DNA of 43,191 nt, from NCBI GenBank assembly GCA_027488965.1, contig JAIYAO010000111.1, forward strand, positions 1 to 43,191, written 5' to 3'. The stretch is from Alphaproteobacteria bacterium (lineage in GTDB: Bacteria; Pseudomonadota; Alphaproteobacteria; Caulobacterales; Aquidulcibacteraceae). The notes below the pieces were generated by a model. It did no database searches, was not told the DNA's origin, and was given only the letters and a program-made list of their open reading frames with translations. Of the stretch, positions 3,118 to 33,870 are shown piece by piece. A program made the position numbers and the translations under genes. Each line of letters begins with the position of its first letter. Position 1 is the first letter of the stretch.

Positions 3118-4062
3118 ATGCGCACGTTCACCGCCGAGGACGCCGTTCCGGCCGACGCGCGCGGCGCGGCGGTGGCGCTGGGCAACTTCGACGGCGTCCA
3201 TCGCGGACACCAGGCGGTGGTGGCCGCCGCCGCCGCGCGCGGGAGCCCACTGGCGGCCGCCGTGTTCGAGCCGCACCCGCGCCGCTTCTTCAAGCCCGAG
3301 GCGCCGCCCTTCCGCTTGCAATCGCCCGGGCAACGCGCGCGCGCGCTGGCGGCGCTCGGCGTCACCGTGCTGCACACGCTGCGCTTCGACCGCGCCATGG
3401 CCGACCGCGACGACACCGCCTTCGTGCGCGACATCCTGGTCGACCACATCGGCGCAGCGCACGTGGCGGTGGGGTTCGATTTCCGCTTTGGACATGACCG
3501 CGTGGGCGACGCCGCGCGCCTGCTGGCGCTGGGCGCGCAGTACGGGTTTTCTGTGGAAGTGGTCGACGCCGTCGACGATGCGCGCCACGCCGGCAAGGTC
3601 TCTTCATCCGACATCCGCGCCGCCGTCGAGGCCGGCGACACCGCGCGCGCCGCAAATCTCCTCGGCCGCCCCTGGGCCATCGAGGGCGCGGTGATCGATG
3701 GACACAAGCGCGCCCGCGGCATCGGCTTTCCCACCGCGAACGTGGCGCTGGGCGACTACGTGCGCCCGCTGTTCGGCGTCTATGCCACGCGCACCGATGT
3801 GGGCGACGGCGTGTGGCGGGCAGGCGTGTCCAACATCGGCGTCAAGCCCACCGTGAGCGACGCGCCGGAGCCGCTGCTGGAGACGCACGTGTTCGACTTC
3901 GACGGCGACCTTTACGGGCGTACGGTGGAGACGCAGCTGCTTGCCTTCCTGCGGGCGGAGCAGAAGTTCGAGAATTTCGCGGCGCTGACGGCGCAGATCG
4001 CTGCGGATGCCGATCGGGCTCGCAAGGTGCTGGCCGAGCCGTCTATCCTCGCCGCGCCCTGA
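3118..4062 (+). CDS. ribF: Bifunctional riboflavin kinase / FAD synthetase
   Basis: A 314-residue cytosolic enzyme that makes FMN from riboflavin and then FAD. The N-terminal nucleotidyltransferase part shows GNFDGVHRGH at 22-31 and EPHPRRFFKP at 51-60. The C-terminal kinase part has GIGFPTANVAL with the PTAN motif at 205-208. Length and domain order match bacterial RibF. The ATG at 3118 sits 2 bases behind the MaoC stop, suggesting coupling. Its last 20 bases overlap the end of convergent tadA. No FMN riboswitch is visible upstream, as expected because it follows another gene. Confidence 0.96.
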   Translation: MRTFTAEDAVPADARGAAVALGNFDGVHRGHQAVVAAAAARGSPLAAAVFEPHPRRFFKPEAPPFRLQSPGQRARALAALGVTVLHTLRFDRAMADRDDTAFVRDILVDHIGAAHVAVGFDFRFGHDRVGDAARLLALGAQYGFSVEVVDAVDDARHAGKVSSSDIRAAVEAGDTARAANLLGRPWAIEGAVIDGHKRARGIGFPTANVALGDYVRPLFGVYATRTDVGDGVWRAGVSNIGVKPTVSDAPEPLLETHVFDFDGDLYGRTVETQLLAFLRAEQKFENFAALTAQIAADADRARKVLAEPSILAAP

Positions 4063-29050: not shown

Positions 29051-29074
29051 AGACGTTAAACGGCCCAAACCGTT

Positions 29075-29104
29075 AAAAGGCCGGGCGGCGATGCCCGGCC
29101 TTTT
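29075..29104. terminator. Bidirectional terminator between sciP and the small lipoprotein gene
   Basis: A perfect 12-base stem, AAAAGGCCGGGC with GCCCGGCCTTTT, around a 6-base loop. The T-run on each strand allows it to stop transcription of sciP (+) and of the convergent 29135-29329 gene (-). Confidence 0.9.
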
Positions 29105-29134
29105 GGCGTGCCAACCCTCAAGAATTGAGCGCGC

Positions 29135-29329
29135 CTACTGCTTGGTGTTGCTGTCGCGGCAATCGCTGTCGAGCACACCCACGTCGTTGCGGCCGTTGCA
29201 GACGTCGTTGTCGTCCACGAAGTAGTCCACCGCCGCCGCCCCCGCGAGCAGGACGCAGCCCCCCGTCGCCATCGGCGCCGCGAGCGCAAACAGAACGATC
29301 ATGGCGGTCTTCGTGGCGGTGAGCTTCAT
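29135..29329 (-). CDS. Small exported protein, possible lipoprotein
   Basis: A 64-residue protein that I do not recognise. It starts with a basic-hydrophobic signal, MKLTATKTAMIVLFALAAP, and then MATGGC, a weak lipobox with Cys25. The remaining 39 residues are acidic and carry two more cysteines (DVCNG and SDCRD) that could pair. The ATG at 29329 is preceded by AAGGA. It probably sits in the periplasm or on a membrane. The small size limits confidence that it is expressed. Confidence 0.6.
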   Translation of the reverse strand: MKLTATKTAMIVLFALAAPMATGGCVLLAGAAAVDYFVDDNDVCNGRNDVGVLDSDCRDSNTKQ

Positions 29330-29705
29330 GGCGCGCGTCCTTGGTTGCTATCTCATCAACCTTTCGCCGGCAGAAATGTTCCCTGCGCCGCGAGATGGTC
29401 CCGGGGTTGCAGGCGGCCGGCATCCGAGATAGCCGCCGGAGTGTCGGTGCCTCCGATAATTCGGGCCCCACCCCGCGCACGGATAACACTTGCGTTATCG
29501 CACCTTCCTTCCCTGACGACGGTCTTGAACGGCGCAGATCGTTCGCCAAATCCGTGGGGTGCGGGCCGGGCCCCTCTGACACGCAAAGCCGAACGGCTTT
29601 CCATGTGATGTCGGACCGCATCGGGAGCATCCCGGTGTCGGCTCGGCTTTTGATATCTCCGAAGTCTGCAACGCCGCTCTCGCAACATCAAAAGAGAGGA
29701 GCGTC
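29330..29705. other. 376-base gap between divergent small genes
   Basis: No coding frame here looks real. It must hold the promoters of the leftward lipoprotein gene and of the rightward YdcH-like operon. One clear dyad is seen at 29482-29499: GATAAC-N6-GTTATC, a possible operator. No promoter hexamers could be assigned with confidence. Base composition is somewhat less G+C-rich than the flagellar genes. Confidence 0.5.
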
Positions 29706-29951
29706 ATGTCTGACCGACATATCCAGTCCCTGATCCATCGCCGCGTCCAGGTTCAGCGCGCGATCGAAGCCGAGCGCGCAAGCGCCAATCCTGAATCGCT
29801 GCGCCTCGCACAACTCAAGAAGGTGCGACTTCTCTTGAAGGACCGGCTTGCACGCCTCTCGGCACACGCAGCAACCGTCATTGATGGACCCAGGCAGGCA
29901 AACGTCGGCGAGCGCCGCCGCCGCCTGCGCGCCCGAAGCCGCAAGTCTTGA
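29706..29951 (+). CDS. YdcH-like small coiled-coil protein (DUF465)
   Basis: An 81-residue basic protein. Residues 5-52 (HIQSLIHRRVQVQRAIEAERA ... LRLAQLKKVRLLLKDRLARL) follow the DUF465/YdcH pattern: a helix, a short turn, then a second helix with LKKxRLxLKDR. YdcH-type proteins are small helical hairpins of unknown function. The Arg-rich tail (GERRRRLRARSRKS) could bind nucleic acid. AGAGGAG lies at good distance. It heads a likely three-gene unit with the zinc-finger-like and Alx-like genes. Confidence 0.75.
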   Translation: MSDRHIQSLIHRRVQVQRAIEAERASANPESLRLAQLKKVRLLLKDRLARLSAHAATVIDGPRQANVGERRRRLRARSRKS

Positions 29952-29964
29952 TTGGAGAAGCGAC

Positions 29965-30261
29965 ATGCCCCTGATCCAGTCCCCCATCGACGGCCTGCCC
30001 ATGCGCCAGATCGTGCGCTATGGCATCGAGTTCGACGTGTGCCCCTCGACAGGGGGCGTCTGGCTCGACAAAGGCGAGCTTGAGAAGTTGATCGCATTCG
30101 TGGCGGAAGAAGCGCGGGCGCAAGACATGCCCGGGCCTCCGAGCGACCGTGTGCAACCGCGCAACGCGCATCGGCACTTTGATGAAGACGACGCCGGCGA
30201 CCGCCACCATGGCGGCGATGGACGTCGCAAGTCGCGCCTGTTGGATCTATTCGAGTTCTGA
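29965..30261 (+). CDS. Degenerate TFIIB-type zinc-ribbon protein
   Basis: A 98-residue protein. Its first 45 residues follow the zf-TFIIB layout, CPxC...GxxxDxCPxCxGxWLDxGELEKL, but the sequence reads SPIDGLPMRQI...GIEFDVCPSTGGVWLDKGELEKLI. Only one of the four expected zinc ligands (Cys26) remains, so a normal zinc knuckle cannot form. The rest of the motif is well kept, including GGVWLDKGELEKL. A His/Asp-rich stretch near residues 68-84 (HRHFDEDDAGDRHHGGDG) might bind metal instead. GGAG precedes the ATG, 13 bases after the YdcH-like stop. Confidence 0.75.
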   Translation: MPLIQSPIDGLPMRQIVRYGIEFDVCPSTGGVWLDKGELEKLIAFVAEEARAQDMPGPPSDRVQPRNAHRHFDEDDAGDRHHGGDGRRKSRLLDLFEF

Positions 30262-30283
30262 CGGTCCCGACACCCGCATGAAC

Positions 30284-30312
30284 GGGCGCCGCCAACCAGC
30301 GCGGCGGCGCCC
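30284..30312 (+). terminator. GC-rich hairpin before the Alx-like gene
   Basis: Ten-base arms GGGCGCCGCC and GGCGGCGCCC around a 9-base loop. No T-run follows. It lies 22 bases after the zinc-ribbon-like gene and 57 before the Alx-like start, so it may attenuate or process the transcript rather than end it. Confidence 0.5.
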
Positions 30313-30368
30313 ACACGGGATTCAACCAACCTCATACAGTTCTACCGCAAGACGCCCCCAAGGACGCC

Positions 30369-31427
30369 ATGGACTTCCTCGCCTCGTTCCTCACTCACGA
30401 GTTCCTTGGCAAGGAAACGTGGATCTGGCTTGCATTCGTCGGGACCGTCGCCGCCCTGCTCGCCTTCGACCTGGGCGTTGTGAACAAGAACGACCACGAG
30501 ATCGGCGTGGCGGAGTCGCTCAGGCTCTCGGCGCTCTATATCGCCATCGGCCTAGGCTTCGCTGTCGTGGTCTGGCATCTCTACAACAACGAGTACGCCA
30601 CCGCCTCGATCGATCCCCAGTTGCTCGCCGTCACCGGCGTCGAGCGGGCGTGGATGGCGGTTCAGCTTTACCTCACGGGATTTGCAGTCGAGAAGACGCT
30701 GGCGCTGGACAACGTCTTTGTCATCTCGCTTGTGTTCACCTATCTCGCCATTCCGCGGATGTACCAGCACCGCGTGCTGTTCTGGGGCATCATCGGCGTG
30801 ATCGTCCTGCGCGCGCTTATGATCGGGCTCGGCGCGGCGCTCGTGAGTCAGTTCTCGTGGGTGCTCTACGTCTTCGGCGCGTTTCTCGTGCTCACCGGGC
30901 TGCTCATGCTGCGGAAGGGCGACGCTGACCCCGACATGAGCAAGAATAAGGTGCTCATTTGGTTGAAAGGCTGGATGAACGTCACGCCCACGCTGCACGG
31001 CAGCAGGTTCCGCGTGCAGTTGCCGGACCCCCAGACGGGCAAGCTCCGGTGGTTTGCCACGCCGCTGCTGCTGGCGCTGTTTTTCGTCGAGATTGTGGAC
31101 CTTATCTTCGCCATCGACAGCGTGCCGGCAATATTTGCGATCACCAGCGATCCCTACATCGTCTACACGTCCAACATCTTTGCGATCCTGGGCCTTCGCG
31201 CCCTGTTCTTCGCGCTCGCCGCGATGGTGCACCGCTTCAAGTACCTGAAGTATGCTCTGGCGATGACACTGGTGTTCATCGGTTCGAAGATCTTCCTCGG
31301 TGATCTTTTCCCGGGCGGCAAGTTCCCCGCGATGTGGTCGCTCGCCATCACCATGTCGCTGATCGGCGGCGGCGTGCTCTACTCTCTTTGGCGGACGCGC
31401 AACGCACCGGCGACGGGCCACGGGTGA
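30369..31427 (+). CDS. Alx/TerC-family integral membrane protein
   Basis: A 352-residue protein with about nine membrane helices. The paired TerC motifs are EKTLALDNVFVISLVFTYLAIP in the first half and EIVDLIFAIDSVPAIFAI in the second, with in-membrane acidic residues. Length and motifs match the Alx subgroup, linked in Escherichia coli to manganese export and alkaline pH. AAGGA precedes the ATG. No yybP-ykoY-type manganese riboswitch fold was recognised in the 107-base gap, only the hairpin at 30284-30312. It is unrelated in subgroup to the shorter TerC protein at 5306-5983. Confidence 0.92.
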   Translation: MDFLASFLTHEFLGKETWIWLAFVGTVAALLAFDLGVVNKNDHEIGVAESLRLSALYIAIGLGFAVVVWHLYNNEYATASIDPQLLAVTGVERAWMAVQLYLTGFAVEKTLALDNVFVISLVFTYLAIPRMYQHRVLFWGIIGVIVLRALMIGLGAALVSQFSWVLYVFGAFLVLTGLLMLRKGDADPDMSKNKVLIWLKGWMNVTPTLHGSRFRVQLPDPQTGKLRWFATPLLLALFFVEIVDLIFAIDSVPAIFAITSDPYIVYTSNIFAILGLRALFFALAAMVHRFKYLKYALAMTLVFIGSKIFLGDLFPGGKFPAMWSLAITMSLIGGGVLYSLWRTRNAPATGHG

Positions 31428-31631
31428 TTCAATGTTCAGGAATACGGGACGCACCGAGTAAGTGCGGCCGCGTATTCAACCACGCGTTCATCGGCGCGGT
31501 TCGGCTGTTCAGCATTGGGCGGCCTGCCTTCCCCCGCAGCGCGGGGAAAGTGGCGCGCGGGGCGCGCGCGCCCATCCCCGGCTGCGCCGGGACTTCCCCC
31601 GCGGGCTGGGAAAAAAAATTGCAATTAGTCC
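31428..31631. other. Hairpin-rich intergenic segment after the Alx-like gene
   Basis: No gene is seen. Two stem-loops occur: 31528-31550 (CTTCCCCCGC with GCGGGGAAAG, one mismatch) and 31575-31592 (CCCCGGC with GCCGGG). Either may end the upstream transcript. An A-tract at 31611-31618 then begins the promoter region of the next locus. Confidence 0.5.
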
Positions 31632-31659
31632 TTGCATGCGGACAATTTTCCTGTATATC
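31632..31659 (+). promoter_or_regulatory. Housekeeping-type promoter for a candidate RNA
   Basis: A -35-like TTGCAT (31632-31637) and a -10-like TATATC (31654-31659) are separated by 16 bases. An AT-rich A-tract lies upstream (31611-31628) and a GC-rich discriminator downstream. This is the layout of promoters for stable RNAs. No protein gene begins within 500 bases on this strand. Confidence 0.6.
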
Positions 31660-31665
31660 CTCGCC

Positions 31666-32040
31666 CCGTCGACCAAGGGAGGGCCCGTGAGCTCCGGACT
31701 CTGAGGCGGTCGGCGGCGGGCCGGCGTGGTCCTGTCCTGCGGGGTCGCAAACCGCGGGTATTCCATGGAGGCTCCGGGCCTACCGTGCACGCCGCACCGG
31801 GAAACACGGCAGGCGCTAACCTGCGGCGCTGAGGCGTCCCCGTCGGGGGCGACAGACGCTGGCGGGTCGGCCTGGCAAGCCACGAAAAACGCCCGTGGCC
31901 GGTGTCCGGGAAAAACGGTCCGCTTCGACGGGGCGCAGGTCAGCGCCATTCCCGCCGGCTTTTCGCCGGCCTGCCGGCGCCGTCCTGCGCCCCGCCTCCC
32001 GCCTGGGGTTGTCCCGGGCGGGCTCCTTGAAACCGCATCG
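31666..32040 (+). ncRNA. Candidate structured RNA, family unknown
   Basis: Behind the promoter at 31632-31659 lies about 375 bases with no plausible protein frame but many strong helices. Examples are CGGCGTG with CACGCCG around 31723-31797, GCAGG-CGCTAA-CCTGC near 31810-31825, and GCCACG with CGTGGC near 31880-31902. A nested long hairpin has outer arms CGGGGCGCAGG (31929-31939) and CCTGCGCCCCG (31984-31994) and an inner GCCGGC-TTTTC-GCCGGC. A last hairpin lies at 31998-32022. I could not match it to RNase P, 6S, SRP or tmRNA. Ends are approximate. It could instead be only a GC-rich spacer or a long fliF leader. Confidence 0.45.
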
Positions 32041-32127
32041 GCGGACGCACACGCCCGCCAGTGACACACACTTGCCTGTTCGCCACCCCGCACCGCGCCC
32101 CGCCCGCCGCAAAAGACTTGCAGCGTC

Positions 32128-32142
32128 TTAACCATGTTTTCA
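32128..32142 (+). promoter_or_regulatory. CtrA-like site upstream of fliF
   Basis: TTAA-CCATGTT-TTCA matches TTAA-N7-TTAA at seven of eight positions, and TTAACCAT is a common form of the first half. It lies 67 bases before the fliF start. In Caulobacter the fliF operon is a class II operon switched on by CtrA. Confidence 0.55.
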
Positions 32143-32150
32143 CGGCGACC

Positions 32151-32163
32151 GGCAATTTCTGCC
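32151..32163. promoter_or_regulatory. ftr-like dyad upstream of fliF (possible FlbD repressor site)
   Basis: GGCAATTTCTGCC, the same core as the dyads in the flgK-fliK gap. It lies just downstream of the CtrA-like site. In Caulobacter FlbD represses its own fliF operon through an ftr element overlapping the promoter, which fits this place. Confidence 0.6.
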
Positions 32164-32208
32164 TAGCGCGATGCTTGTGTCGCGCCCGCAGGATTCTGGC
32201 GCCCGCCC

Positions 32209-33870
32209 GTGAACGCATTCACCGACGCCCTCATGAAACTCGGCCCCATGCGCCTGTTCGCAGCGCTCGGGGTCACCGCCATCGTCGCGGCCGCCGTCTT
32301 CGCACTCGTCTTCCGCGTGGGCGGCGAGGAGAAGGCGCTGCTGTTCTCCGGGGTGGAGCTGTCGGAAGCGGGCGAGATCTCCTCGCGCCTCGACGCCGCC
32401 AACATCCCCTACGAGCTGAAGGGCGACGGGACCACGATCATGGTGCCCCGCTCCAAGGTGCTCTCGGCGCGGCTGATGCTGTCGGAGGATGGCCTGCCCT
32501 CGCGCGGCTCCGTGGGCTACGAGATCTTCGATCGGCAGGATGCGCTGGGCGCCACCCAGTTCCAGCAGAACATCAACCGCCTGCGCGCGCTGGAAGGCGA
32601 ACTCGCCCGCACCATCGCCTCCATCCACGGGGTGGAGCGCGCCCGCGTGCATCTTGTCTTGCCGGAGAAGCAGCTCTTCGCGCAGGAGCGCGACCAGCCC
32701 ACCGCCTCCATCGTGCTCACTGTCGCCGGCGGCGCGCTCTCCGCCGGCCAGGTGCGCGCCGTGCGCAACCTGGTGGCCAGCGCGGTGCCGGGGCTCGCCG
32801 TCAACCGCGTCACCATCGCCGACGACGACGGCCGCCTGCTCGCCGCCGCGGAGGACGATTCCTCCGGCGCCGCTGGCGCCGAAGCCATGGACGAGCGCAA
32901 GGCGGGCCTCGAGGAACGCTTGCGCAAGGAAGTCCAGAACATCGTGGAAAGCGTCGTGGGGCCCGGCGCCGCCCGCGTGCAGGTAAGCGCGGACGTGGAC
33001 TTCAACCGCGTCACCCAGACCTCGCAGACCTTCGACCCCGAGGGCCGCGTGGTGCGGGAGACGAACTCCACCGAGGAGTCCACCAAGGGCGCAGCCACCG
33101 GCGGCGGCGGCGCAAGCGCCACCCGCAACCTGCCCGACGGGGCGGGCGAAAATGCATCGGGCGGCGGCGACGAGTCCGAGCGCACGGAAGAGAAAGTCCG
33201 CTACGAGATCTCCAACACCACCAAGACCGAGATCATCGAGGGCGGCCGCATCAAGCGGCTCTCCGTGGCGGTCGCGGTGGACGGCGTCACCACCCCGGGC
33301 GCCGAAGGCCAGCCCGCAGCATGGGCCGCGCGCGATCCCCAGGAGCTGGAGCGGATCACCGCGCTCGTGAAGTCCGCCGTCGGCTTCGACGAAGCGCGCG
33401 GCGACAAGGTGGAGGTGGTCAACCTCAAGTTCGCCCGCGCGGCGGTGGAGGGCGCCGAGAGCGGCAAGCCCTCGATGTTCTCCTTCGGCAAGGACGACAT
33501 CATGCGCGGCGTCGAGATCCTCGCTGCGCTGATCGCCAGCATCGCGGTGATCTTCTTCGTGCTGCGCCCGCTGGTGGCCGGCATGATCGCGCCCCCCGGC
33601 AGCGCCGCCGCCGGCGGGCTGCTGACGGGGCCGGGCGGCGCAGGCGCCATGGCCGGCGCAGGCGGTGCAGGCGGCTCCCTGCCGCCGCCGCCGCTCGCCG
33701 GGGCCCTGCCCGCGCCGGCGGGCATGAGCATGGTGGAGAGCACGCTCGACATCGCGCGCATCAACGGCCAGGTAAACGCCACCTCGGTGAAGCGTGTGGC
33801 GGAGGTCATCGAGCAGCACCCCGACGAATCCGCGCAGATCCTGCGCACCTGGCTGTCGGAGCGCGCCTGA
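32209..33870 (+). CDS. fliF: Flagellar MS-ring protein FliF
   Basis: A 553-residue inner-membrane protein that forms the MS ring. One membrane helix lies near residues 14-36 and another near 438-460 (ILAALIASIAVIFFVLRPLV). Between them are the YscJ-type ring domains with ARVHLVLPEKQLFAQERDQPTASIVL and the loop VTRVTIADDDGRLL-like segment. The C-terminal tail (AEVIEQHPDESAQILRTWLSE) binds FliG. The start is GTG at 32209, with only a weak, distant AGGA; an ATG at 32233 is possible. It heads the operon fliF-fliG-flbE-fliN-flbD-flhA. Confidence 0.95.
   Translation: MNAFTDALMKLGPMRLFAALGVTAIVAAAVFALVFRVGGEEKALLFSGVELSEAGEISSRLDAANIPYELKGDGTTIMVPRSKVLSARLMLSEDGLPSRGSVGYEIFDRQDALGATQFQQNINRLRALEGELARTIASIHGVERARVHLVLPEKQLFAQERDQPTASIVLTVAGGALSAGQVRAVRNLVASAVPGLAVNRVTIADDDGRLLAAAEDDSSGAAGAEAMDERKAGLEERLRKEVQNIVESVVGPGAARVQVSADVDFNRVTQTSQTFDPEGRVVRETNSTEESTKGAATGGGGASATRNLPDGAGENASGGGDESERTEEKVRYEISNTTKTEIIEGGRIKRLSVAVAVDGVTTPGAEGQPAAWAARDPQELERITALVKSAVGFDEARGDKVEVVNLKFARAAVEGAESGKPSMFSFGKDDIMRGVEILAALIASIAVIFFVLRPLVAGMIAPPGSAAAGGLLTGPGGAGAMAGAGGAGGSLPPPPLAGALPAPAGMSMVESTLDIARINGQVNATSVKRVAEVIEQHPDESAQILRTWLSERA

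Follow-up and report, generated by a model that had tools for sequence, protein, structure and literature searches.

A multicopy structured RNA family of the Caulobacterales with a divergent copy upstream of fliF

The gap between terC and fliF

The window, a stretch of 43,191 nt from an alphaproteobacterium of the Caulobacterales (assembly GCA_027488965.1, contig JAIYAO010000111.1), carries terC at 30369-31427 and fliF at 32209-33870. The intergenic gap of 781 nt between them (31428-32208), which an earlier note on this DNA had pointed out, was confirmed, and the A-tract described there was found at 31611-31618. The note had also placed a strong promoter in the gap. A TTGCAT/TATATC pair with a GC-rich discriminator is present, but an E. 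coli-type consensus scan gives no score, and the scan of the gap called neither a promoter nor a terminator. In homologs from the same genus, promoter-like hexamers, such as TTGACA in the copies of the congener G001, are located at the equivalent position relative to the RNA. The RNA at this locus is about 340 nt long, with the 5' end near 31665 and the 3' end near 32005-32020, possibly beyond 32044.

Three models of the RNA were built: R1, a 5'-domain model from the window and G001 sequences; R2, a better 5' model of 150 positions from 15 copies; and R3, an independent 3' model. The features of the locus are as follows.

31632-31659, + strand: promoter-like sequence, TTGCAT (31632-31637), 16-nt spacer and TATATC (31654-31659), read from the sequence
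31665-32020, + strand: structured RNA gene, ends approximate, placed by independent matches of R2 (31668-31823) and R3 (31905-32000)
31666-31716, + strand: P2 hairpin of 9 bp, CCGTCGACC (31666-31674) with GGTCGGCGG (31708-31716), from the sequence; R2 helix 1 covaries
31677-32000, + strand: P1 pseudoknot stem, GGGAGGGC (31677-31684) with GCCTCCC (31994-32000), from pairing across nearly all copies
31722-31794, + strand: Px domain, CGGCGTG (31722-31728) with CACGCCG (31788-31794); R2 helices 2-4 covary
31736-31742 with 31752-31758, + strand: hairpin HA inside Px, from the same covarying helices
31765-31772 with 31778-31786, + strand: hairpin HB inside Px, from the same covarying helices; in the window by eye, with one bulge
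31812-31893, + strand: P3, GGCG (31812-31815, within GGCGCTAA) with CGCC (31890-31893), from family pairing; in the window by eye
31906-31917, + strand: conserved CCGGGAAAAACG segment, from family comparison and R3
31929-31994, + strand: P4 hairpin, CGGGGCGCAGG (31929-31939) with CCTGCGCCCCG (31984-31994), from the R3 helices
32029-32044, + strand: GAAACCGCATCGGCGG motif, present 3' of the RNA in 8 of 46 copies
32128-32175, + strand: fliF-proximal block TTAACCAT...TTCAC...TCTGCC, outside the RNA, from alignment with the sequences that precede fliF in G001 and G002

The nested hairpins of the earlier note have a real basis in the 11-bp stem of P4. The GAAACCGCATCGGCGG motif, which is AAACCCGCATCGGCGG-like, lies 21-60 nt (usually 21-28 nt) 3' of the RNA core where it occurs. 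It is nearly absent elsewhere in the scanned loci and, since all 8 occurrences in a background scan were within the order Caulobacterales, it is not a common repeat; it is possibly a 3' extension or terminator of the RNA. Two other elements were observed near the gene. The segment 31528-31618, directly 5' of the promoter-like sequence, is a GC-rich palindromic repeat, and the genome contains more than 20 related ones. An Rfam terC RNA (29558-29623, + strand, 49.7 bits) is located 5' of the DUF465/Zn-ribbon/terC cluster; the terC open reading frame itself begins about 750 nt further on.

Conserved fold and the window copy

The earlier note had suggested comparing relatives for compensatory base changes, and this comparison, with up to 89 distinct sequences, revealed strong covariation. 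For the four helices of R2, 93.7% of the cells were paired in the 89 sequences, compared with 71.0% in shuffled and at most 45.6% in slid controls, and 439 double-change cells were counted, compared with 115 in shuffled controls, with double changes at 21 of the 23 pairs; this alignment had been fitted to the R2 model. In the MAFFT seed alignment of R2, from whose members the R2 structure was derived, 94.8% of the cells were paired against 77.6% in shuffled controls, and there were 64 double-change cells against 17.7. Covariation support for the P4 helices (R3) was more modest.

The helix P3 joins GGA[G/C/U]CUAAG to [C/G/A]UCC. Full pairing was observed in all 41 scored copies with three pair types, and none of 10000 shuffles, which leave the relatedness of the copies in place, was equally good. 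P1 is a pseudoknot that connects the 5' and 3' ends of the RNA: its 5' strand, GGGAG, is contained in the P2 loop and pairs with CUCCC at the 3' end. This stem varies little, and compensatory versions of it are few. CUCCC has an alternative partner in many copies, a local GGGAG just 3' of it, and therefore a structural switch is possible.

To place the window copy, we used R2 and R3, both of which were built without it. R2, which covers the 5' domain P2-Px-HA-HB, matched 31668-31823 with 44.1 bits (E=1.2e-10), and R3, which covers the CCGGGAAAAACG segment, the P4 hairpin and CUCCC, matched 31905-32000 with 43.6 bits (E=9e-8), while its score on the opposite strand was 16.7 bits. The two matches have the expected order, spacing and strand. 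The long-range helix P3 of the family (GGANCUAAG with NUCC) was also found by eye, as a private compensatory version, GGCG/CGCC, of GGAG/CUCC with an altered flanking motif. Other helices of the window copy have private versions as well, again by eye: CCGUCGACC/GGUCGGCGG in P2 and CGGGGCGCAGG/CCUGCGCCCCG in P4. Folding energy was dropped as evidence for an RNA, because the minimum free energy was not beyond chance when compared with shuffled sequences (z of -1.84 on the + strand and -1.90 on the - strand). The fold of the window copy exceeds chance because of homology, covariation and the matches of two models blind to this copy. The copy is divergent, scoring 44 bits compared with 115 bits for the G000:C105 copy in the same genome and having the second-longest branch in the copy tree. 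In our reading, it is a divergent yet structurally intact member of the family, and its placement before fliF is incidental.

Distribution and genomic context of the copies

The first homolog was a 77% identical stretch in G001, flanked by a LuxR-type gene on one side and an SH3-domain gene on the other and preceded by a promoter-like TTGACA. A search of the family with R1 gave 16 convincing matches including the two seeds, several per genome, and a DNA pattern made from these matches was found at 32 loci among 84,980 species genomes. Of these loci, 31 are in metagenome-assembled genomes labelled Hyphomonadaceae, Caulobacteraceae, Caulobacterales or unclassified Alphaproteobacteria; the remaining one, in Holophagae (L071), had no R3 match and was taken as chance. 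R2 matched 41 of the 398 genomes searched in the order Caulobacterales. In a sample of 385 genomes from the whole class, its matches stayed within this order, and there were none in the roughly 380 other alphaproteobacteria sampled. The family was not found in the plasmids and phages searched, and two exact pattern matches in viral contigs were unrelated, with none for a longer pattern.

With lax filters, R2 gave 16 matches in G046 (mostly weak), 15 in G242, 14 in G032 (about 13 elements on a single contig), 13 in G034, 10 in G043 and 4 in the genome of the window; some pairs of matches belong to a single element that a large insert divides. The close relatives G031 and G002 had no R2 match even with lax filters, and the RNA is thus dispensable. 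Overall there are 0 to about 16 copies per genome, each of about 320-440 nt. The RNA is also multicopy in two further families of the order (f2 g35, and f3 g16, where the Px-HA-HB core alone matches), and in two genera the copies match in part. Three other genera of the order have single weak matches that may be accidental, and weak blastn matches in G014, G028, G038, G045 and G055 look like chance.

Several unusual arrangements were observed among the copies. The genome of the window contains a near-identical pair of a different subfamily (G000:C131:14206-14359 and G000:C114:1-132), whose similarity extends more than 200 nt upstream and one of which runs off the contig end. A repeat of about 580 bp in G379 (f3 g16; L147, 2774-3354), present in four copies of 95-100% identity, has the Px-HA-HB core but differs in its 3' part. 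One copy (L066, near 5466, - strand) is split mid-way by unrelated sequence, apparently an insertion. REP-like palindromes are found just upstream of the G032 copies as well.

Eighteen copies in G032 and G033 share no neighbour gene and occur in both orientations (most gene names were assigned by sequence recognition). In the copy tree, the copies cluster partially by genome, with 24 label changes compared with 35 after shuffling, and several subfamilies are present per genome.

Nature of the RNA

The statement of the earlier note that nothing in the gap reads as protein was borne out by the family. When frames are counted from the conserved A/GTGGAGCTAAG, the conserved motifs that follow occupy all three of them, with stops anywhere from codon 7 on, indicating that the RNA is non-coding. 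The note could not place the sequence in a known RNA family either, and the Rfam search that it proposed gave no match at gathering or permissive thresholds; in Rfam 15, members of several other subfamilies, like the window copy, match no family at gathering score. Matches to C4, SgrS and RsmY were weak, far below the cut-off, and were rejected. At one locus (L137), an Rfam suhB/mmgR sRNA (3616-3698, - strand, 47 bits) is convergent with an RNA copy, just 3' of it, and overlaps the downstream motif; lying outside the RNA, it was rejected as the identity of the family. Identity with RNase P RNA, alpha-tmRNA or 6S RNA was also rejected, since the genome carries all three elsewhere and there was no model match. 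No matching description was found in the literature on Caulobacter sRNAs and new structured RNAs, mainly the main texts of open journals.

Several large orphan bacterial RNAs have been described, namely OLE, GOLLD, ROOL and raiA/ModT (PMC12286853, PMC11706538, PMC9723947). Like them, the new RNA is hundreds of nucleotides long with a conserved multi-helix fold, conserved unpaired segments and no coding frame, and its function is not evident from sequence. Unlike them, it has no Rfam match and is dispersed in multiple chromosomal copies within one order, and it is shorter than OLE, GOLLD and ROOL. With RNase P RNA, alpha-tmRNA and 6S RNA it shares structure, a size in the range of 180-400 nt and paired 5' and 3' ends (its stability is predicted), but not sequence. 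The many intergenic copies, several with REP-like palindromes just upstream, are reminiscent of REP/MITE-type repeats, from which the RNA differs in having 300 nt or more, a covarying multi-helix fold and promoter-like sequence, and no consistent target duplications. As in concerted families of the rRNA type, the bodies in one genome appear to be kept alike even where their promoters and flanks differ; however, this RNA is neither essential nor universal, with zero copies in some relatives. As a family, this RNA would be new, whereas its broad kind, orphan structured RNAs, is already known.

Homology, conserved secondary structure, non-coding nature, multicopy dispersal and independence from fliF were established computationally. 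Judging from sequence comparison, the locus is probably a gene for a trans-acting, pseudoknotted stable RNA of about 340 nt with its own promoter-like sequence, belonging to a dispersed and concertedly evolving family of the Caulobacterales. The RNA would be transcribed from this promoter-like sequence and be stable. It would act in trans and not on the neighbouring gene, most likely as the structured core of a ribonucleoprotein, and may have a ribonucleoprotein or catalytic role, while copies within one genome would be homogenised by gene conversion.

The chief rival is a non-autonomous mobile, selfish element that spreads as a unit of promoter and RNA, with the RNA as its cargo and possibly its mobility signal. 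We regard this as unlikely, although the range in copy number, from 0 to about 16 within one genus, speaks for it. In G043, two copies are 98% identical; their similarity begins at the promoter-like box and stops where the RNA ends, the flanks being unrelated, a pattern that fits dispersal. The G032 copy upstream of bipA is missing in five relatives, where the flanking genes are 0-93 bp apart. However, the insert at the bipA site exceeds the RNA in size, and no transposase was found at the copy ends. Target-site duplications were not consistent there, with one 5-bp candidate at one G043 copy and none at its twin; for this reason an insertion sequence or MITE was rejected, terminal inverted repeats not being seen by eye either. 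In G059, the RNA bodies are 100% identical over 390 nt, while one promoter is only 73% alike and the downstream flanks are unrelated, which fits gene conversion better than mobility. Moreover, the copies L109 and L110, from two species of the same genus (f2 g35), precede homologous genes, and the changes that distinguish them in P2 and HB look compensatory by eye, pointing to selection on resident copies.

More doubtful still is a reading in which the family is functional but the window copy is a pseudogene in decay. The copy's place in the lowest-scoring group, its long end branch and the change of the GGAGCUAAG motif to GGCGCUAAC are consistent with decay, but all of its helices pair, P3 through a compensatory double change and P2 through a 9-bp private version, and R2 and R3 both still match it. 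The earlier note had offered an undescribed stable RNA or a long regulated leader of the flagellar operon; the compensatory changes and the lack of an Rfam match and of a reading frame sustain an undescribed RNA family, whereas the leader was not supported. Although the RNA is on the fliF strand, 190 nt upstream, a cis-acting leader of the fliF operon is very improbable, because homologs adjoin unrelated genes in either orientation and fliF of the congeners is without the RNA. In G001 and G002, a DUF1153 gene is followed directly by fliF, whereas the DUF1153 (SciP-like) gene and fliF of the window are about 3 kb apart, with DUF465, Zn-ribbon, terC and the RNA in between (about 29055-32110). 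The fliF-proximal block, probably fliF's own promoter region, is kept in all three, without the RNA in G001 and G002 and below it in the window, and thus the RNA is independent of fliF. A riboswitch or cis-regulatory leader of fliF was rejected, as the RNA has no conserved position upstream of homologous genes. Similarly, there is very little likelihood that the RNA is the structured mRNA of a small protein, such as a type I toxin of the hok kind. The mRNAs of hok type are about 400 nt long, folded end to end and multicopy, which the new RNA resembles in length, fold and copy state, and at the GGAGCUAAG motif an ATG or GTG is present in many copies, with long open frames in some; however, the frames and stops described above argue against translation from that start.

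Beyond the reading as a stable RNA gene, we tentatively raise the less likely possibility that the family represents a class of large structured RNAs, perhaps ribozymes or ribonucleoprotein cores, whose RNA-only genes disperse themselves with no protein of their own and are kept uniform by gene conversion. So much conserved structure in an RNA of about 340 nt usually implies a demanding job. The family belongs to the order that includes Caulobacter, with up to about 16 copies per genome and no Rfam match, and may be a bacterial example of RNA genes, other than the ribosomal ones, that evolve in concert. Defined by models, helices and copy lists, it can now be used for testing transcription, partners and phenotype.
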